DNA of 64,000 nucleotides from Lactobacillus sp. ESL0684. Lineage in GTDB: Bacteria > Bacillota > Bacilli > Lactobacillales > Lactobacillaceae. The position numbers were made by a program, and so were the translations under genes. Of this stretch, positions 41,309 through 56,595 are shown piece by piece; the first letter of the stretch is position 1, and every line of letters begins with the position of its first letter. The notes below the pieces were generated by a model. The model made no database searches, had not been told where the DNA came from, and saw nothing but the letters and a program-made list of their open reading frames with translations. The DNA lies in NCBI RefSeq assembly GCF_029392675.1, contig NZ_CP113941.1, forward strand, positions 918,001-982,000. The letters run 5' to 3'.

Positions 41309-42187
41309 ATGAAGATTGCATTGGTTACGGATAGTACTAGTGGTATAACTGAGCAGGAAGCAGCGGAAAATCAAATTATTGTTGTTCCCATTCCAATTAT
41401 TATTGGTAGTAAAGAATATTTAGAAGGCGTAGATATTACTTCTGAACAATTATTTGAACTACAACGTCAAGGAGCAGAATTTCCCAAGACTTCTCAACCT
41501 AGCATGGGTGAAATGATTTCACTGTTTAATAGACTGCATAGTGAAGGCTATGAAGCAATTATTGCGATTACATTATCAAGTGGAATTTCTGGCTTTTACC
41601 AGAATTTAACTAATATTGCGAAAAATAATCCAGAATATAATTTACACCCGTTTGATTCTAAAATGACGGTTCGTTTGCAAGGAGATTTAGTTTTAGCGGC
41701 TGCCAAGATGATTAAAAATAATGTTAAATTAGATTGCATTCTAGCTAATTTAGCTAAAATCGATGATACAATCGACGAATTATTTGTTGTCAATGATTTA
41801 AACAATCTAAGTCATGGTGGTCGGCTAAGTAATGCAGGTGCTTTTATTGGCTCAATGCTTAATATTAAACCATTGTTAACTTTTGAAGATGGAAATATTG
41901 TAGCTTTTGACAAAATCAGGTCTATTAAACGTGCTCTCACTAAAATCGAATCGTTGACTTTGAAAAAGATTAACGACTTACCATATAAAGATCAGCTAAA
42001 ATTATTTGTTATTGACTCAAATGATGAAAGTCAAGCGCAAGAAGCTAAAAAGTTTCTGTTAAAGAATTTCCTAGGTAAAACAATTTCAGAAACTAAATTT
42101 AGTCCAGTAATTGCTACTCACTTGGGTGAAAAATCATTAGCAATTGGTTGGATGATTGATATTGATCAAATAGATTTAACTAAATAA
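41309..42187 (+). CDS. DegV family fatty-acid-binding protein (first copy)
   Basis: 292 residues. DegV/FakB proteins bind a fatty acid and present it to FakA for phosphorylation. N-terminal VTDSTSGI (7-14) holds the conserved Thr/Ser pair, EFPKTSQPSMGEM (about 51-63) and LSSGISGFYQN form the lipid head-group site, and LSHGGRLSNAGAFIGSMLNIKPLL is the family signature. An extended -10 (TGCTATAAT) lies upstream and GGAAGG precedes the ATG by about 11 bases. A second DegV gene lies at 62952-63815; the two probably differ in lipid preference. Confidence 0.9.
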   Translation: MKIALVTDSTSGITEQEAAENQIIVVPIPIIIGSKEYLEGVDITSEQLFELQRQGAEFPKTSQPSMGEMISLFNRLHSEGYEAIIAITLSSGISGFYQNLTNIAKNNPEYNLHPFDSKMTVRLQGDLVLAAAKMIKNNVKLDCILANLAKIDDTIDELFVVNDLNNLSHGGRLSNAGAFIGSMLNIKPLLTFEDGNIVAFDKIRSIKRALTKIESLTLKKINDLPYKDQLKLFVIDSNDESQAQEAKKFLLKNFLGKTISETKFSPVIATHLGEKSLAIGWMIDIDQIDLTK

Positions 42188-42229: not shown

Positions 42230-42853
42230 ATGATTAAAAAAGATGAGTTAATTAATTGGGCAGTTGAATTGCAAAGCATTGCTCAAAATGGCTTAGAATA
42301 TGGTCATGATCGATTTGACTTAGAACGATATGAAAGAATTCGTGAGATTGCTAGTGAAATGATGACTGCTAAGTCTAATTTACCACTTGAGCAAGTAAAA
42401 AATTTATTTAGTAGTGAAGATGGCTATCAAACACCTAAATTAGGAACAAGAGCTGCAATTTTTAAAGACAAACAAATTTTATTAGTACGCGAAACTACAG
42501 ATGGTAAATGGTCACTACCAGGCGGCTGGTGTGAACCCAATGTTTCTGTGGAAGCTAATTGTCTTAAAGAGGTTGAAGAAGAAGCAGGCAGAAAAGTTGT
42601 TGTAAAACGAGTCATTGCTTTACGTAATCACACACATAAAACACGTCAGGAACGAATTATTAACGTCTGCAATGTCTTTTTTCTGTGCCAGGAAGTTAAA
42701 GGAAATTTCGTTAAGAACACAGAAACAGATGACTGTCAGTATTTTGCCTTTAACGATTTACCTGAATTATCTGAAGAAAGAAATAGTAAACAAGAACTTG
42801 CCATGTGTTTTGCAGCTAATGAAGATGCAAACTGGCAAACGACATTTGAATAA
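42230..42853 (+). CDS. NUDIX hydrolase with N-terminal helical domain
   Basis: 207 residues. The first 60 form a helical domain (WAVELQSIAQNGLEYGHDRFDLERYERIREIA) typical of the YjhB-like ADP-ribose/nucleotide-sugar pyrophosphatases. The Nudix box GGWCEPNVSVEANCLKEVEEEAG lies at about 97-119: the metal-binding E-x-x-E-E core is intact, while the first box Glu is Val and Arg is Lys, as is common in this subgroup. Substrate likely ADP-ribose or a related diphosphate. GGGGGAA is the ribosome binding site. Confidence 0.85.
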   Translation: MIKKDELINWAVELQSIAQNGLEYGHDRFDLERYERIREIASEMMTAKSNLPLEQVKNLFSSEDGYQTPKLGTRAAIFKDKQILLVRETTDGKWSLPGGWCEPNVSVEANCLKEVEEEAGRKVVVKRVIALRNHTHKTRQERIINVCNVFFLCQEVKGNFVKNTETDDCQYFAFNDLPELSEERNSKQELAMCFAANEDANWQTTFE

Positions 42854-42855
42854 AT

Positions 42856-42885
42856 AAAAAAATGCTTGTTACAAGCATTTTTTTA
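42856..42885. terminator. Bidirectional terminator between the NUDIX gene and xerS
   Basis: Stem AAAAATGCTTGT with ACAAGCATTTTT, 2-4 base loop, T run on both sides, at convergent gene ends; it overlaps the last codon of xerS. Confidence 0.85.
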
Positions 42886-43950
42886 TTCTCCTTTATTAGA
42901 AGATATTTCATTTAGAGCAGCTCGCTGCTTTCCTTGGTCAACATGAGTGTATAAATCTGTTGCGGAAGTGCCTTTTTGCCCCAACTGCTGAGCAACTAAT
43001 ACCTGGTCCTTAGTGACACTGTATAATTCAGAAGCTAGCGTGTGACGTAATTTATGGGGGGTTAGAGGATGCCCAAAGCTAGCGGAGTATTTATTGACCA
43101 TCTTTTCAATTGCATTAGTAGTGATGCGTTTTGTTTGATTATGCCAACGAGTTAGAAAAAAAGCATGTACATTTTTACTAGCAGAGTATCGCTTACGGCG
43201 TATTTTTTGATAACTGGTAAGATAGTCTAAAGTCCATTCAGCAATCGGTACACTGTCTCGTTGCCCTCCTTTACGAGTCACATCAAGGCTCGCTTGCTTA
43301 AAGTTCAAATCTGCTAAATTTACCCCAGCACATTCTGAAACTCTAATACCAGTTCCTAAAATTAAGGCAACAATGGCTAAATCTCGTTCCTTATTAATTT
43401 TAAAGGCGGGCAAAGCTTGTTTATTACAAACATGCTCGTATTTTTGCTCGATAAAATCTAAAAATTGATACTTTAATTCTCCAGTGTACATATGGGATTC
43501 CAAGACATGTGCCCGGTAATTCAACGTCTTAGTATTATTCAACGAGTCAATCTTTAGCATAACATTGCGTTCAAAGTATGGCTTTCCATGGTTATCGTCC
43601 GATGTAATAGTTAAATATTTGAAAAGGGAACGTAATGCATTAATCGAGCGGTTAATTGTAGTTGGAGAATTCAAGTGTCCCTGTTGGTTTTTAATATGAC
43701 CTAAATATTCAATATAGAGCATAATGTCATTGCGCCTTAAGTTGGCCAATGTAGTAGTGGTTACTTGACGATTATTTTTGGCTGGGGAAATTCCCTGATT
43801 GCGCAACCAATCAAAAAAGCGACGAATTTCGGTTAAGTATTGATAAGTAGTGGTTAAAGAATGAGTAGTGCCAAAATTATATTCTTTAACAAAGTCGGGT
43901 AACCGAGTTAATTCGGCTTCAATTAAGTTTAAATATCTTTTGGTTTCCAC
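42883..43950 (-). CDS. xerS: XerS-type tyrosine recombinase
   Basis: Single-subunit Xer recombinase first described in streptococci and lactococci, where it resolves chromosome dimers at dif_SL. 355 residues from a GTG at 43950, which AAGGAG precedes by 7 bases; this matches the 356 residues of streptococcal XerS. Matching blocks include GKPYFERNVM, NKERDLAIVALILGTGIRVSE, DVTRKGGQRDSV and LTPHKLRHTLASELY. Catalytic residues: Arg203, Lys227, His299, Arg302, Tyr334. The sixth position, His in LGH of most relatives, is Gln325 (LGQKGTSATDLYTH). Next to it lie a dif_SL-like palindrome (44110-44163) and a canonical dif (44508-44535). Confidence 0.88.
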   Translation of the reverse strand: METKRYLNLIEAELTRLPDFVKEYNFGTTHSLTTTYQYLTEIRRFFDWLRNQGISPAKNNRQVTTTTLANLRRNDIMLYIEYLGHIKNQQGHLNSPTTINRSINALRSLFKYLTITSDDNHGKPYFERNVMLKIDSLNNTKTLNYRAHVLESHMYTGELKYQFLDFIEQKYEHVCNKQALPAFKINKERDLAIVALILGTGIRVSECAGVNLADLNFKQASLDVTRKGGQRDSVPIAEWTLDYLTSYQKIRRKRYSASKNVHAFFLTRWHNQTKRITTNAIEKMVNKYSASFGHPLTPHKLRHTLASELYSVTKDQVLVAQQLGQKGTSATDLYTHVDQGKQRAALNEISSNKGE

Positions 43951-44109
43951 GATAAATCTCCTTAAATATAGCGATCCGATAACATGGGTCAAGAGGGTAG
44001 GTTGACAGATTAATTTTTAAATCGATCATTAAAATTAATAACTTAGAATAGGAATAAGCGTCGTTTTGAAGTTTGATTAATAAAAAAGTATTCACTAGGA
44101 AAGAATAAG

Positions 44110-44163
44110 TTTTTTTATCTGCTATCATTAAAATTATAGTTTTAATGATAGCAGATAAAAAAA
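44110..44163. repeat. Perfect 24-bp inverted repeat with dif_SL-like core; candidate XerS target
   Basis: Left arm 44110-44133 and right arm 44140-44163 are exact reverse complements over 24 bases (TTTTTTTATCTGCTATC plus ATTAAAA on the left), with the 6-base spacer TTATAG. The central 14-mer, read on the minus strand, is AAAACTATAATTTT, identical as far as I recall to the core of streptococcal/lactococcal dif_SL. It lies 160 bp upstream of xerS, close to where dif_SL lies in streptococci. It ends in A on the plus strand rather than T, so it is not a standard terminator. Confidence 0.72.
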
Positions 44164-44223
44164 GCTCATGCAAGTCACTTATTTTCATAAGTTCTGTAAA
44201 AATCTATTATTGTTCATTACTAT

Positions 44224-44239
44224 TAACTTACTAATTTTA
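44224..44239 (+). repeat. 16-bp direct repeat, copy 1 (copy 2 at 44382-44397)
   Basis: TAACTTACTAATTTTA occurs exactly at both positions, 158 bp apart, between the XerS-type palindrome and the dif site. Its role is unknown. Confidence 0.6.
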
Positions 44240-44507
44240 CCTTGTAATACCGTTTATTAATTTGCTAGCTTAAAACAAGCATTCATCACAGTAAGTAATG
44301 TTAACATTTCAAGATAAATTTAAATAATTATGATGCTTAAATAGTAAATATAAACGAACAATCTCTGAACTATGCGAGAGCTAACTTACTAATTTTAAAT
44401 ATAGCTAGCTCAACAAGCTTGGCATGATCTTAACGCTAAATTTAAAATTTAATGGTTTTAAACAACTGCGATCTCAATATGCTTTATTCTGAATATTTTT
44501 CAGAGTA

Positions 44508-44535
44508 ACTTTACATAATATATATTATACGAAGT
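44508..44535 (-). other. dif: Canonical dif site for XerC/XerD chromosome dimer resolution
   Basis: Read on the minus strand: ACTTCGTATAA (XerC half), TATATA (spacer), TTATGTAAAGT (XerD half), 28 bp. The Bacillus subtilis dif as I know it is ACTTCCTAGAA, TATATA, TTATGTAAACT: 25 of 28 positions agree, and the three differences fall at arm positions, two of which vary in the Firmicutes consensus. Spacer and XerD half are almost unchanged. It lies where gene orientation switches, as expected for the terminus. Confidence 0.9.
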
Positions 44536-45048
44536 TGCAACGATGATAATTAAAGCACATCCTATTTCAGGTGTTGCCATTATTTTACATATATTTTACT
44601 TGCTTGCTAATTGATCAATGATGTTACATACTAGTACTAGCTAAAACTGATAGATTCTCATCAAAAAATTTATTTTTTACTAAAATAAATTTTCAGGATG
44701 CAATTTTAAGCGTTTTCTGTTAAAATTTATATAGGTACATTTAATGGGTAGAAATAATTATTGATTAAAATGTAACCTGCTTTTATAGCAAGTGATTACC
44801 CGCTTTAAATTAAAATCAATTAATTTTTGGCATTTCATTTTAAGTACACTTTTTATAAGTGCATTTTATTTGAATTATTTCGAAATTAACATAGAATATT
44901 ATTTGGGGTATAAATTTAAAACATTTTATTTGATCTATTTCTTTTTGAGAATTAGTTGTTTTACTTATTATTTTTATTGTTTTATTCTACAATAATCTGT
45001 TATTATGGATATTATGGAATCATATTTTTGAAAGGGTTGATTTATTCC

Positions 45049-45408
45049 ATGAGTATAAATTTAGGAAAAGAAATTTGCCGTCGTCGACGGGAACAAAAGT
45101 TAACACAAGAAGATCTTGCAGAACTAAGCGATTTGTCAGTTAACTTTATCTCACGTCTTGAGCGGACTAAGAATCAAAATATTAGTATTCAGAAATTGGA
45201 TTCAATTGCTAGAGCTTTGAATACCACTACACCTGATATTATTATGAATGCTTACCGCTTTAAAGAAGTTAAGGCAGAAAATCATCAAGATAATACACCT
45301 GTGTTCATTAAAAAAGTTCTTAACGAACTAAGAAAAATGGAACCAGAAAAAGCTGAAAGAGTGTGCAAGGCTTTCATTATCTTAACTAAAGAAATTAATA
45401 AAGATTAA
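45049..45408 (+). CDS. XRE-family helix-turn-helix regulator
   Basis: 119 residues. HTH domain at about 5-60: GKEICRRRREQKLTQEDLAE, then LSVNFISRLERTKNQNISIQKLDSIARALN; the C-terminal part is helical and may mediate dimers. I chose ATG 45049, with AAAGGG about 12 bases upstream; the open frame extends to 44956 but that part is hydrophobic and low-complexity. It stands alone next to the dif region, with a terminator shared with ppaC. Such lone regulators at dif can be remnants of integrated elements, but no other phage gene is visible. Targets unknown. Confidence 0.8.
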   Translation: MSINLGKEICRRRREQKLTQEDLAELSDLSVNFISRLERTKNQNISIQKLDSIARALNTTTPDIIMNAYRFKEVKAENHQDNTPVFIKKVLNELRKMEPEKAERVCKAFIILTKEINKD

Positions 45409-45411
45409 TTT

Positions 45412-45462
45412 AAAACAAAAAAATAGCTAGTGGATTAATTCCCCTAGCTATTTTTTTGTTTT
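45412..45462. terminator. Bidirectional terminator between the XRE gene and ppaC
   Basis: A 19-bp perfect stem, AAAACAAAAAAATAGCTAG with CTAGCTATTTTTTTGTTTT, with a 13-base loop; T runs on both strands at convergent ends. Confidence 0.92.
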
Positions 45463-46390
45463 AATTAAAAGCTTCCGTTAAAGGCGGAACAACTTGCTTT
45501 TTACGTGAAACCACTCCAGGTAAACTAACTTCAGAATCAGTTATCTCACCAAAGGCACGCTCAAACAGCTGCACTGCTGCAGTTGAACCAGTTACCAAGG
45601 CTGTTGAATCAGAATCTAGCACATTAGTAATTAATAACATGAACAAATCGTAATTATTTGCTGCAGACTCTGCTTTCATGGCTTGTAAAAATTCTGCTTT
45701 ACGTTCCATGGCTTCTGGTAGATCAACTACGTTAATTTGAGCAACTCGAACATTTTTACCATTAAGGGTAAAACTTTTAGCATCCAAATTGATTAAATCT
45801 TGTTCCGACTTATCAGCAATATTGGTCCCAGCTTTTAATTCTTCTAAACCATATTTTTGATAATCAACTTCAGCAATCTTAGCCAGTGCTTCAACAGCTT
45901 GATGATCATCCTTGGTCGTAGTTGGCGACTTAAGCAATAAAGTGTCAGAAATAATAGCTGATAACATTATTCCAGCAATATTTTTAGGAATTTCTATCCC
46001 ATAATGTTGAAATAACTTCCAAACAATAGTACTAGTACAACCAACTGGTTGAGCCAGATAAAACAGTGGCAAGTTTGTTTTAAAATTCATGATTCGGTGA
46101 TGGTCAACCACGTGTGTTACAGATACTTGGTCAATATCTGACACACTTTGTTGCGGTTCATTATGATCAACCAGCATCACTTTTTCTACTTCATTAGCTG
46201 CAGTTTGAATTACACGCGGTGCTTCAAAACCAAAATATTTTAGTGCAAAGGTAGTTTCATCATTAGGCTTTCCTAGAGCAACTGCTTCCGTATTAAATCC
46301 CCGCTGATTTTGCAAATATGAATATGCAATTGCTGTACCAATTGCGTCAGTATCAGGACTTTGATGTCCAAAAACTAATTCTTTTTCCAT
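45461..46390 (-). CDS. ppaC: Manganese-dependent inorganic pyrophosphatase (family II)
   Basis: Hydrolyses pyrophosphate in the cytoplasm to drive biosynthesis. 309 residues, DHH phosphoesterase fold: [16 protein letters not shown] (His9, Asp13, Asp15), VDHNEPQQS, the DHH motif VDHHRIM, and the C-terminal RKK motif [10 protein letters not shown] that binds phosphate. ATG at 46390 follows GAGGAAG. Monocistronic. Confidence 0.95.
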
Positions 46391-55144: not shown

Positions 55145-55669
55145 TTATAGTTCATCCGTCTTAATTTGATCATCTGTAAAGATATCAATTCCAGAAGCAA
55201 TTTCAACTGCTTCATGAGCAATTTCACTCGCACTCATTTCACCTGCATGTCTAGTTAAAGCAATCGCAGCTGCTTGAGCAAAATTACCTCCGGAACCAAT
55301 TGCCACTACATTTTCATCAGGTTCAAGCACTTCGCCATTTCCTGAGATCAATAATAAATCTTGCTCATTAAAAGCAATCAGCATAGCATCTAATTTTTGT
55401 AAAGTCGCATCTTTACGCCAAGCCTGTGCCATTTCAACGGCAGCTCTACGCAGATCTCCACTAAATGCTTCTAACTTATCTTCTAACATGTCTTGCAAGC
55501 TAACTGCATCAGCAACTCCGCCAGCAAACCCGATTACTACTCGGTCATGATAAATCCTTCTAATTTTTTTAGCAGTCGCCTTAGCAATTACTTTTTCGCC
55601 TAAGGTAACCTGTCCATCACCTGCTATTGCAGTATGGCCATTAAATTTTACTGAACAAATAGTTGTCAT
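55145..55669 (-). CDS. hslV: HslV peptidase subunit
   Basis: Threonine-type proteolytic subunit. 174 residues starting [11 protein letters not shown], giving an N-terminal Thr after Met removal, the catalytic nucleophile. Family segments GDGQVTLG, GFAGGVADA and IGSGGNFAQAAAIAL are intact. This differs from B. subtilis CodW, which uses an N-terminal Ser. Its start overlaps the xerC stop by one base. Confidence 0.95.
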   Translation of the reverse strand: MTTICSVKFNGHTAIAGDGQVTLGEKVIAKATAKKIRRIYHDRVVIGFAGGVADAVSLQDMLEDKLEAFSGDLRRAAVEMAQAWRKDATLQKLDAMLIAFNEQDLLLISGNGEVLEPDENVVAIGSGGNFAQAAAIALTRHAGEMSASEIAHEAVEIASGIDIFTDDQIKTDEL

Positions 55670-56595
55670 TACTTTGCCTCATCTTTCTTATTATTACGAG
55701 TAAAAAATCGCTCATAATTAGTTTGTAAATTTTGAGTAGTTACATGGGTATAGATCTGGGTAGTTGAAAGATTACTATGCCCTAGCAATTCCTGTACACT
55801 ACGCAAATCAGCCCCATTATTTAGCATTGCGGTTGCAAACGAGTGCCGCAATTCATGGGGATGAACTTTTCCACTAACCCCTGCTTTATTAAACACTTTT
55901 TGCATAATATATTCAATTCCACGTGTCGTTAATTGCTTACCTCGATTATTTAAAAAAACGTAGTCACAGTCTTGAAACTGATGTAATAACTTAGAACGCG
56001 CATAGTGTAAATAATTGGTCAATGCTTGCTTAGTTGCTTCATCAAAAGCGGTATAACGATCTTTATTTCCTTTACCATGAACCAAAACTAAATTTAATTC
56101 CAAATCAATTTGAGCTAATTTTAATTCACTAACCTCACTTACCCGCATGCCAGTTGTATAAAACAATTCAAACATCGCTAGGTTACGCATAGTAAGAGGA
56201 TCACTACCACTTAGTGTAGCGAATACTTGTTTAAGTTCAGGAGCATAGAAAAATTGTGGTAATTTTTTCTGCTTAGTATGAATGGTTAGTCCTTGAGTAG
56301 GATTAACCTTAATCAGTTTGCGCCTAGTTAAAAATCGATAAAACGACTTTAGACTTGATAACTTGCGTGCCTGAGTAGTTTGCGTTACCTGTTGCTCTGC
56401 GAGATTTTGTAAAAAAAGCTCAACATCCCGTTCAGTAATGGACTCCCAGGTTGTAAAACCGCCATTAGTCTGCAAAAATGACTTTGCCTCAAGCAAATCA
56501 GCTTGGTAAGACTCAATAGTCCTGGGGCTGTAATGCCGCTCATTTTGCAAGTAACTAACAAAACTGGATAATCCTTTATCTAGAGCATTATTCAT
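55669..56595 (-). CDS. xerC: XerC tyrosine recombinase
   Basis: Partner of XerD in dimer resolution at dif. 308 residues: SAM-like N-terminal core-binding domain (about 5-90) and catalytic domain with all six residues: Arg in [11 protein letters not shown], Lys in [20 protein letters not shown] (His, Arg), His in [16 protein letters not shown] and the Tyr nucleophile. Operon position between trmFO and hslV is that of codV/xerC in Bacillus, which separates it from XerD. A canonical dif lies 11 kb to the left. Overlaps trmFO by 8 bp. Confidence 0.93.

Follow-up and report, generated by a model that had tools for sequence, protein, structure and literature searches.

Two Xer recombination systems, XerS and XerC/XerD/dif, lie side by side at the chromosome terminus in Lactobacillus

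The terminus of the Lactobacillus sp. ESL0684 chromosome carries two Xer systems next to each other: a xerS gene with a dif_SL-like palindromic site, and a canonical dif site in a genome that also has intact xerC and xerD genes. The analysis confirmed that both are real, adjacent and widespread in the genus. Chromosome dimer resolution is usually described as the business of one system per chromosome, with XerS as the streptococcal replacement. We consider it likely that the two are redundant dimer-resolution modules at one terminus, that this dual state is old and stable, and that single-system lineages arise by losing either module.

Results

The terminus locus of Lactobacillus sp. ESL0684

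The window, i.e. the whole stretch of 64,000 nucleotides that was analysed (G000:C1:918001-982000), belongs to a genome of 1.89 Mb (1,889,244 bp) in a single contig. A profile search found four tyrosine recombinases of the PF00589 family in this genome: xerD, xerC, the xerS gene of Table 1 and a gene at 1144 kb, which reaches no Xer cut-off (best score 57 bits) and looks like a phage-type integrase. The xerS product matches NF003462 (tyrosine recombinase XerS) best among the NCBIfam models, with 466.9 bits over residues 1-351 (cut-off 267). The same protein attains 118 and 107 bits on the XerC and XerD models, far under their cut-offs. As the original prediction had assumed, it falls within the XerS clade in a quick tree of 94 rows, for which XerC and XerD of the same genome served as outgroup; XerS is split from XerC/XerD with 100% SH-aLRT support, and several long branches occur elsewhere in the tree.

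The catalytic set of tyrosine recombinases is Arg-Lys-His-x-x-Arg-His/Trp-Tyr. In the alignment, the window XerS has the Arg, the Lys, the His-x-x-Arg motif and the Tyr, whereas the last His is replaced by Gln. LGQ instead of LGH is found in most of the aligned Lactobacillaceae XerS sequences, XerS-only lineages included; the His is kept in both streptococcal XerS sequences aligned (n = 2) and also in XerC and XerD. Since the aligned XerS-only lineages share the Gln, this residue is probably compatible with XerS function.

The second system is complete as well. Although xerC stays about 2 bits under the TIGR02224 cut-off, XerC is its best model, and xerD, located 11 kb outside the window, scores 379.2 bits on the XerD model (cut-off 329.6). 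The 27-letter dif pattern has one match in the whole genome at up to three mismatches. The start of xerS and the 30-bp XerS site are 171 bp apart, and a further 356 bp separate that site from dif. The cumulative GC skew, computed over stretches of 20-98 kb, has its maximum at 45370 in the 98-kb stretch, and the locus sits on the corresponding plateau (43060-46387). Profile scores, site scans and the skew plateau thus bear out the original prediction that a XerS-type gene, a dif_SL-like palindrome and a canonical dif occur together at the apparent terminus; xerC was also found where it had been placed, about 12 kb from the locus.

Table 1. Features of the terminus locus and of xerC (positions within the window)
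Feature	Coordinates	Strand	Remarks
DegV-family gene	41309..42187	+	PF02645, 266.8 bits; syntenic landmark on one side of the locus
NUDIX gene	42230..42853	+	PF12535, PF00293; landmark; directly adjoins dif in G074, where xerS and the XerS site are absent
xerS	42883..43950	-	355-aa single tyrosine recombinase; NF003462 and XerS clade
Full palindrome around the XerS site	44110..44163		54 nt, 27-nt arms, 26/27 paired
30-bp XerS site (dif_SL-like)	44122..44151	-	12-bp arms, 6-bp core CTATAA on the minus strand; conserved block
dif	44508..44535	-	28 bp, ACTTCGTATAATATATATTATGTAAAGT on the minus strand; unique in genome; conserved
DHH/DHHA2 gene	45461..46390	-	profile match and synteny; landmark on the other side of the locus
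xerC	55669..56595	-	TIGR02224, 333.4 bits (cut-off 335.15); catalytic residues present

The palindromic XerS site

The palindrome upstream of xerS had been predicted to be perfect. It is a palindrome, but its arms (44110-44136 and 44137-44163) are 96% complementary with a single mismatch, and therefore the core is directional. It scores 24, whereas the best of 300 first-order Markov resamplings of the intergenic 1.1 kb reached 16. The core AAAACTATAATTTT has one exact copy in the 1.89-Mb genome and 12 further matches at one mismatch. In the 30 best-scoring xerS loci of the order, all from genus g23, which is judged to be streptococcal by its site, we read a streptococcal-type site, TCTTTCCGAAAAACTATAATTTTCTTGAAAA with small variants. 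It shares the core with the window site while the arms differ. The predicted dif_SL-like character of the core thus holds: in 28 of these 30 loci the site, which is located 74-78 bp upstream of xerS, has AAAACTATAATTTT as its core too, and the other two have CTGTAA where CTATAA is expected.

We aligned the stretch from dif to xerS in 11 species, i.e. the window and ten others hand-picked from 80 loci. Apart from the start of xerS, the only conserved blocks are dif and the 30-bp site, with the consensus CT[AT]TCATTAAAAC[TA]ATAATTTTAATGA[AT]AG; no further block appears in this alignment between dif and the XerS site or before the xerS start, and in the other ten species conservation of the palindrome does not reach past the 30 bp. 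A 16-nt repeat at 44224 and 44382 was considered as an extra site and rejected, as it has no conserved counterpart in the same alignment.

The site is likewise conserved near xerS in relatives. When the window and the 30 best-scoring congeneric xerS loci were inspected, an inverted repeat of the XerS-site type was reported upstream of xerS in 20 of the 31. In a survey of 75 congeneric genomes, 60 of which are near-complete (completeness of 90% or more, contamination of 5% or less), the site pattern matched at up to three mismatches in 55 (44 of the near-complete ones), and the reversed pattern in 4 of 75. A relaxed scan added seven near-complete genomes with a match beside dif or xerS (G005, G012, G039, G044, G047, G061, G072). 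One site each was tallied from 54 of the 55 matching genomes, leaving out G027 with its unverified match. In 42 of the 54, the 10-bp arms form a perfect inverted repeat; the outermost pair is A-T in 20, T-A in 20, G-C in 5 and unmatched in 9, and the centre reads CTATAA in 39, CAATAA in 14 and CAAAAA in one. The symmetric arms would fit one protein binding both halves. The centre is asymmetric, and therefore the XerS site has a direction.

A fixed arrangement at the terminus of relatives

In the 52 genomes with both sites on one contig, the distance between dif and the XerS site, start to start, ranges from 359 to 1262 bp (median 550). All 47 genomes that have xerS on the same contig show dif, site and xerS in this order, and dif and xerS share a strand. 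The distance from the site to xerS varies from 60 to 11,841 bp and exceeds 3 kb in six of the 47, where dif and the site are still together. Since xerS can be as far as 12 kb off and the site is still next to dif, the site accompanies dif and not the gene. The core of the XerS site is oriented as dif is in 43 of the 52 genomes and flipped in nine. As close relatives differ in this respect, more than one flip of the core has probably occurred, and the way in which 6 bp can invert within a palindrome is a puzzle.

The skew supports the terminal location in most of the genomes inspected. Its maximum lies 18 bp to 2.3 kb from dif, and from the XerS site where scored, in G005, G010, G003 and G053; in the first three of these, dif and the local peak are separated by 18 bp to 1.2 kb, and xerS is 6-12 kb away. 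The XerS site of G047, G020 and G128 is likewise within 18 bp to 2.3 kb of a local maximum. Skew and site disagree in G427 (site 31 kb from the maximum of the stretch) and, within a 20-kb stretch, in G074 (dif 8.7 kb from it).

Each system is lost in some lineages that retain the other

XerS exceeds its cut-off in 70 of the 75 congeneric genomes. G004, G026 and G073 were subtracted from the XerS count, since they hold copies of a paralogous clade only; orthologous XerS is present in 67 of 75, including G016, whose gene is spread over two frames. Two or more XerC/D-type matches (E<=1e-60) occur in 64 of 75. The joint occurrence that the original prediction proposed to survey in lactobacilli turned out to be the rule: 51 of the 60 near-complete genomes have both recombinase sets, five are without XerS, four are without the XerC/XerD pair and none is without both.

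All five near-complete genomes without XerS (G004, G026, G045, G073, G074) have a dif match and two XerC/D matches, and no XerS site was found in the surroundings of dif in any of them. G074 has the DHH gene, an HTH gene, dif and the NUDIX and DegV genes in the order of the window, only xerS and its site being missing. In G073 and G026, dif is still found between the DHH and DegV genes. The G004 contig ends near dif, and the dif of G045 is a 3-mismatch match in a different neighbourhood that lacks the usual neighbours. The converse state is seen in nine genomes without the XerC/XerD pair, four near-complete (G009, G020, G043, G047) and five less complete (G040, G041, G048, G056, G057). All nine keep XerS and the XerS site. 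None has dif at up to three mismatches (0/9; 0/4 of the near-complete), and of the relaxed dif-like matches in six of the nine, none comes closer than 5 kb to the XerS site. One weak XerC/D-type match (205-248 bits) is left in four of them (G020, G040, G043, G056).

The sites follow their genes in the remaining genomes as well. Among the 55 near-complete genomes with XerS, 51 have the XerS site; no convincing one was found in four (G008, G029 and G068; degenerate in G003), and the matches in G027 are unverified. The strict dif pattern is found in 52 of the 75 genomes and in 45 of the 56 near-complete genomes with XerCD. Nine more (G001, G003, G005, G010, G011, G013, G029, G035, G072) have a dif candidate with a diverged outer arm, so that dif or such a candidate is present in 54 of the 56; G027 and G068 have unverified candidates only. 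L. gallinarum (L125) also has a dif diverged in its outer arm, matching in 20 of 25 letters, 631 bp from the XerS site. According to these scans, genes and their sites are present or absent together in the genus.

Some genomes stand apart. In the draft genome G016, which holds both dif and the XerS site, xerS is split over two reading frames (G016:C72:832-1880), which may reflect a recent loss or else an error in the sequence. With 59% completeness and none of the four parts, G046 was set aside. G062 (76% complete) has two XerC/D matches, no XerS and no strict match for either site; G070 (71% complete) lacks XerS, although dif, the XerS site and one strong XerC/D match are present. Nine Lactobacillus genomes (L338-L342, L344-L347) carry an extra XerS-family gene; eight of these genes form one separate clade and that of L347 a lone long branch. 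These nine paralogues, which are perhaps mobile, were left out of the XerS counts. In G004, a site-like match lies about 1.06 kb upstream of the paralogue.

FtsK with its gamma domain is encoded in 69 of the 75 genomes and in all 60 near-complete ones. On an FtsK tree of 68 rows the fewest changes that explain the distribution are three for XerCD and five for XerS, and a tree of 44 rows, chosen from the 68 and computed with a mixture model, agrees. In 200 bootstrap trees of the latter the 5-95% ranges are 3-3 (XerCD) and 5-5 (XerS), and its well-supported branches force at least three and at least four changes, respectively. We read these changes on the unrooted FtsK trees as losses, and as reciprocal ones: relatives without one system retain the other, as if each served as a backup. 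The XerCD-less lineages are on long FtsK branches (stem 1.56 for G047/G048, 1.64 for G057 and 1.07 for G041; median end branch 0.32), which may reflect generally fast evolution or a relaxed FtsK-XerD contact.

In dual-system species the median dN/dS is 0.03 for xerS, 0.12 for xerC, 0.019 for xerD and 0.049 for ftsK, based on nine non-independent pairs from ten genomes, where xerC was distinguished from xerD by how far each lies from the terminus, following the window genome. xerS, xerC and xerD are under purifying selection; both systems are being kept.

The dual state beyond the genus

At the level of the order, 395 Lactobacillales genomes were surveyed: XerS (E<=1e-60) is present in 140 and accompanied by XerC and XerD in 60. 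The XerC+XerD pair is absent (no or weak matches) in 81, and 80 of these have XerS; the sole exception, G341, matches neither system at the chosen thresholds. Since 70 of the 81 belong to the one genus g23, these genomes are not independent. With g23 removed, XerS is present in 10 of 11 genomes lacking the pair versus 60 of 314 (p ~1e-6, kinship ignored). This count treats as having the pair seven genomes with one strong XerC/D match only and no XerS, namely G076 (a complete single-contig genome), G435 and five draft genomes, of which four are less than 90% complete. When the seven are counted as lacking it, the association is weaker (10 of 18 versus 60 of 307, p ~0.001, g23 removed). Four genomes of g3 (Limosilactobacillus) have XerS together with its site; no dif-type match was found in them, and no more than a single weak one to XerC/D.

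We examined the surroundings of xerS in all 46 non-Lactobacillus genomes with XerS and XerC/D. Requiring at least 20 of 24 letters, we found a dif that precedes the xerS open frame by 0.46-1.8 kb in 13 of the 15 genomes scored in family f1, 11 of 16 of f9 and 0 of 12 of f3; G388 (f1) and G210 (f3) were left unscored, and the one genome of f2 is cut by a contig end. Some of the 46 have a palindrome of their own just upstream of xerS. DHH or DegV neighbours recur in the f1 genera g4, g5 and g15 (a partial match in g15). Together, these findings speak tentatively for a dif-xerS neighbourhood of long standing and against repeated insertion, with the reservation that the XerS tree has many long branches.

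Discussion

Our reading of redundant modules starts from their presence, terminal location, conservation, fixed geometry, purifying selection and reciprocal loss, all of them read from the sequences. XerC and XerD together would have dif as their substrate, and XerS, without a partner, the symmetric 30-bp site at a distance of 356 bp. Once two sister chromosomes have been joined in a dimer, FtsK at the septum would pump the terminus in, and a single crossover by either recombinase set would restore two monomers. Since either would suffice, lineages could occasionally drop one system, genes and site together, and retain the other. Going by the families involved, we infer that XerS recombines the 30-bp site, that FtsK activates both systems and that the two work within one cell; as the symmetric arms set the site apart from dif_SL, the action of XerS on it is putative. 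We regard it as likely and well supported that both systems resolve dimers in the same cell. Among the three options that the original prediction had offered, an intermediate, a working dual system and a XerS recruited for another job, the working dual system is best supported.

Recruitment of XerS for another job at the terminus, such as decatenation, anchoring or the exclusion of integrating elements, with XerCD alone resolving dimers in dual species, strikes us as unlikely. In its favour, XerCD/dif appears intact in those species. However, the lineages without XerCD would then be left without dimer resolution, and the XerS site tracks dif and the skew peak, not the gene. Because all nine XerCD-less congeners, which are without dif, keep XerS and its site, an unrelated job as the only one is improbable.

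Also improbable is an evolutionary intermediate in which XerS was recently transferred in and is replacing XerCD/dif, the view that Kono et al. 2011 proposed as a possibility for L. helveticus (PMC3025954, according to its accessible text). XerCD and dif are indeed absent in three separate lineages of the genus and in other XerS-bearing genomes of the order. But loss also runs the opposite way, with five changes for XerS, and all three recombinase genes are under purifying selection. Moreover, an arrangement common to most near-complete congeners, and found beside dif in other Lactobacillales genera, some with the same neighbours, does not look recent.

We regard it as very improbable that the XerS module is a mobile element inserting beside dif: the XerS-family paralogues may be mobile, as may the XerS genes of f3, where dif is nearby in 0 of 12, but the module itself is in synteny with its DegV, NUDIX and DHH neighbours, has no cargo and comprises two conserved blocks only. 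Hardly credible is the palindrome as a terminator or regulator-binding site of xerS without a role in recombination, in spite of its occurrence within the xerS upstream region in 20 of 31 loci, since it is still next to dif where 3-12 kb separate it from xerS (6/47), carries the dif_SL core, is absent near dif in the five genomes without XerS and, on both strands, has A and no T tract after the stem, for which reason it was rejected as a transcription terminator.

Returning to two redundant modules, we note that they raise a parity problem: one crossover resolves a dimer, and crossovers at both sites would rebuild it. How resolution sites 0.4-1.3 kb apart avoid undoing each other is a puzzle for which the sites are now defined for testing. 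It is conceivable, though we would not call it probable, that the dual state is ancestral in Lactobacillales, XerS and its site having stood next to dif already when the families diverged, and that the two systems have run in parallel ever since, with streptococci, Limosilactobacillus and three Lactobacillus lineages as later single-system descendants. If so, sites half a kilobase apart require a rule that blocks the second, dimer-remaking crossover. With both systems at one terminus across most of the genus, and natural single-loss lineages in both directions, a route for swapping a conserved system suggests itself: a second one is added beside the first, and then either is lost.

According to the accessible text of a 2017 review (PMC5357621), XerS/dif_SL is the single module of streptococci and lactococci, and dif_SL is a 31-bp site with unequal arms and an 11-bp centre; 'lactobacill' is absent from that text. 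The window system resembles it in recombinase family and clade, in protein length (about 355 aa), in the core AAAACTATAATTTT and in a site near the gene, 171 bp from xerS and at the terminus as marked by the skew plateau. In contrast, the window system stands beside an intact XerC/XerD/dif and replaces nothing, its XerS has Gln where the streptococcal one has the last His, and its site, compared with the dif_SL described there, has 30 bp, equal 12-bp arms, a 6-bp core and other outer letters. Because the geometry differs while the core letters match, we call the site dif_SL-like. With the XerCD/dif of Bacillus-type Firmicutes the locus shares xerC, xerD and a single dif on the skew plateau, but it adds a single-recombinase module 356 bp from dif. 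The XerL/dif system of Legionella, described in the accessible text of PMC9765430, likewise has a single recombinase and long uninterrupted inverted repeats; as differences, it is presented there as a single-recombinase system, its recombinase is another one, and its site and gene are more than 400 kb apart. At the terminus of L. delbrueckii ssp. bulgaricus, two putative dif copies in a 47.5-kb inverted repeat have been described (PMC5345009, accessible text). A precedent is L. helveticus DPC 4571, for which Kono et al. 2011 noted that xerC, xerD and xerS coexist, near the skew shift, and found neither dif nor a XerS site (PMC3025954, as far as its accessible text goes); no other report of a dual system was evident by title or abstract in a literature search reaching few subscription papers. 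A dif diverged as in L. gallinarum may explain why none was found in L. helveticus. The premise of the original prediction that XerS replaces XerCD had thus already been called into question by L. helveticus (PMC3025954, accessible text), and the present genome, where both sets are present, does not follow it either. What is new has to be seen against this coexistence noted in 2011 without a XerS site: the present genome shows the same coexistence, and in addition both dif and the XerS site.
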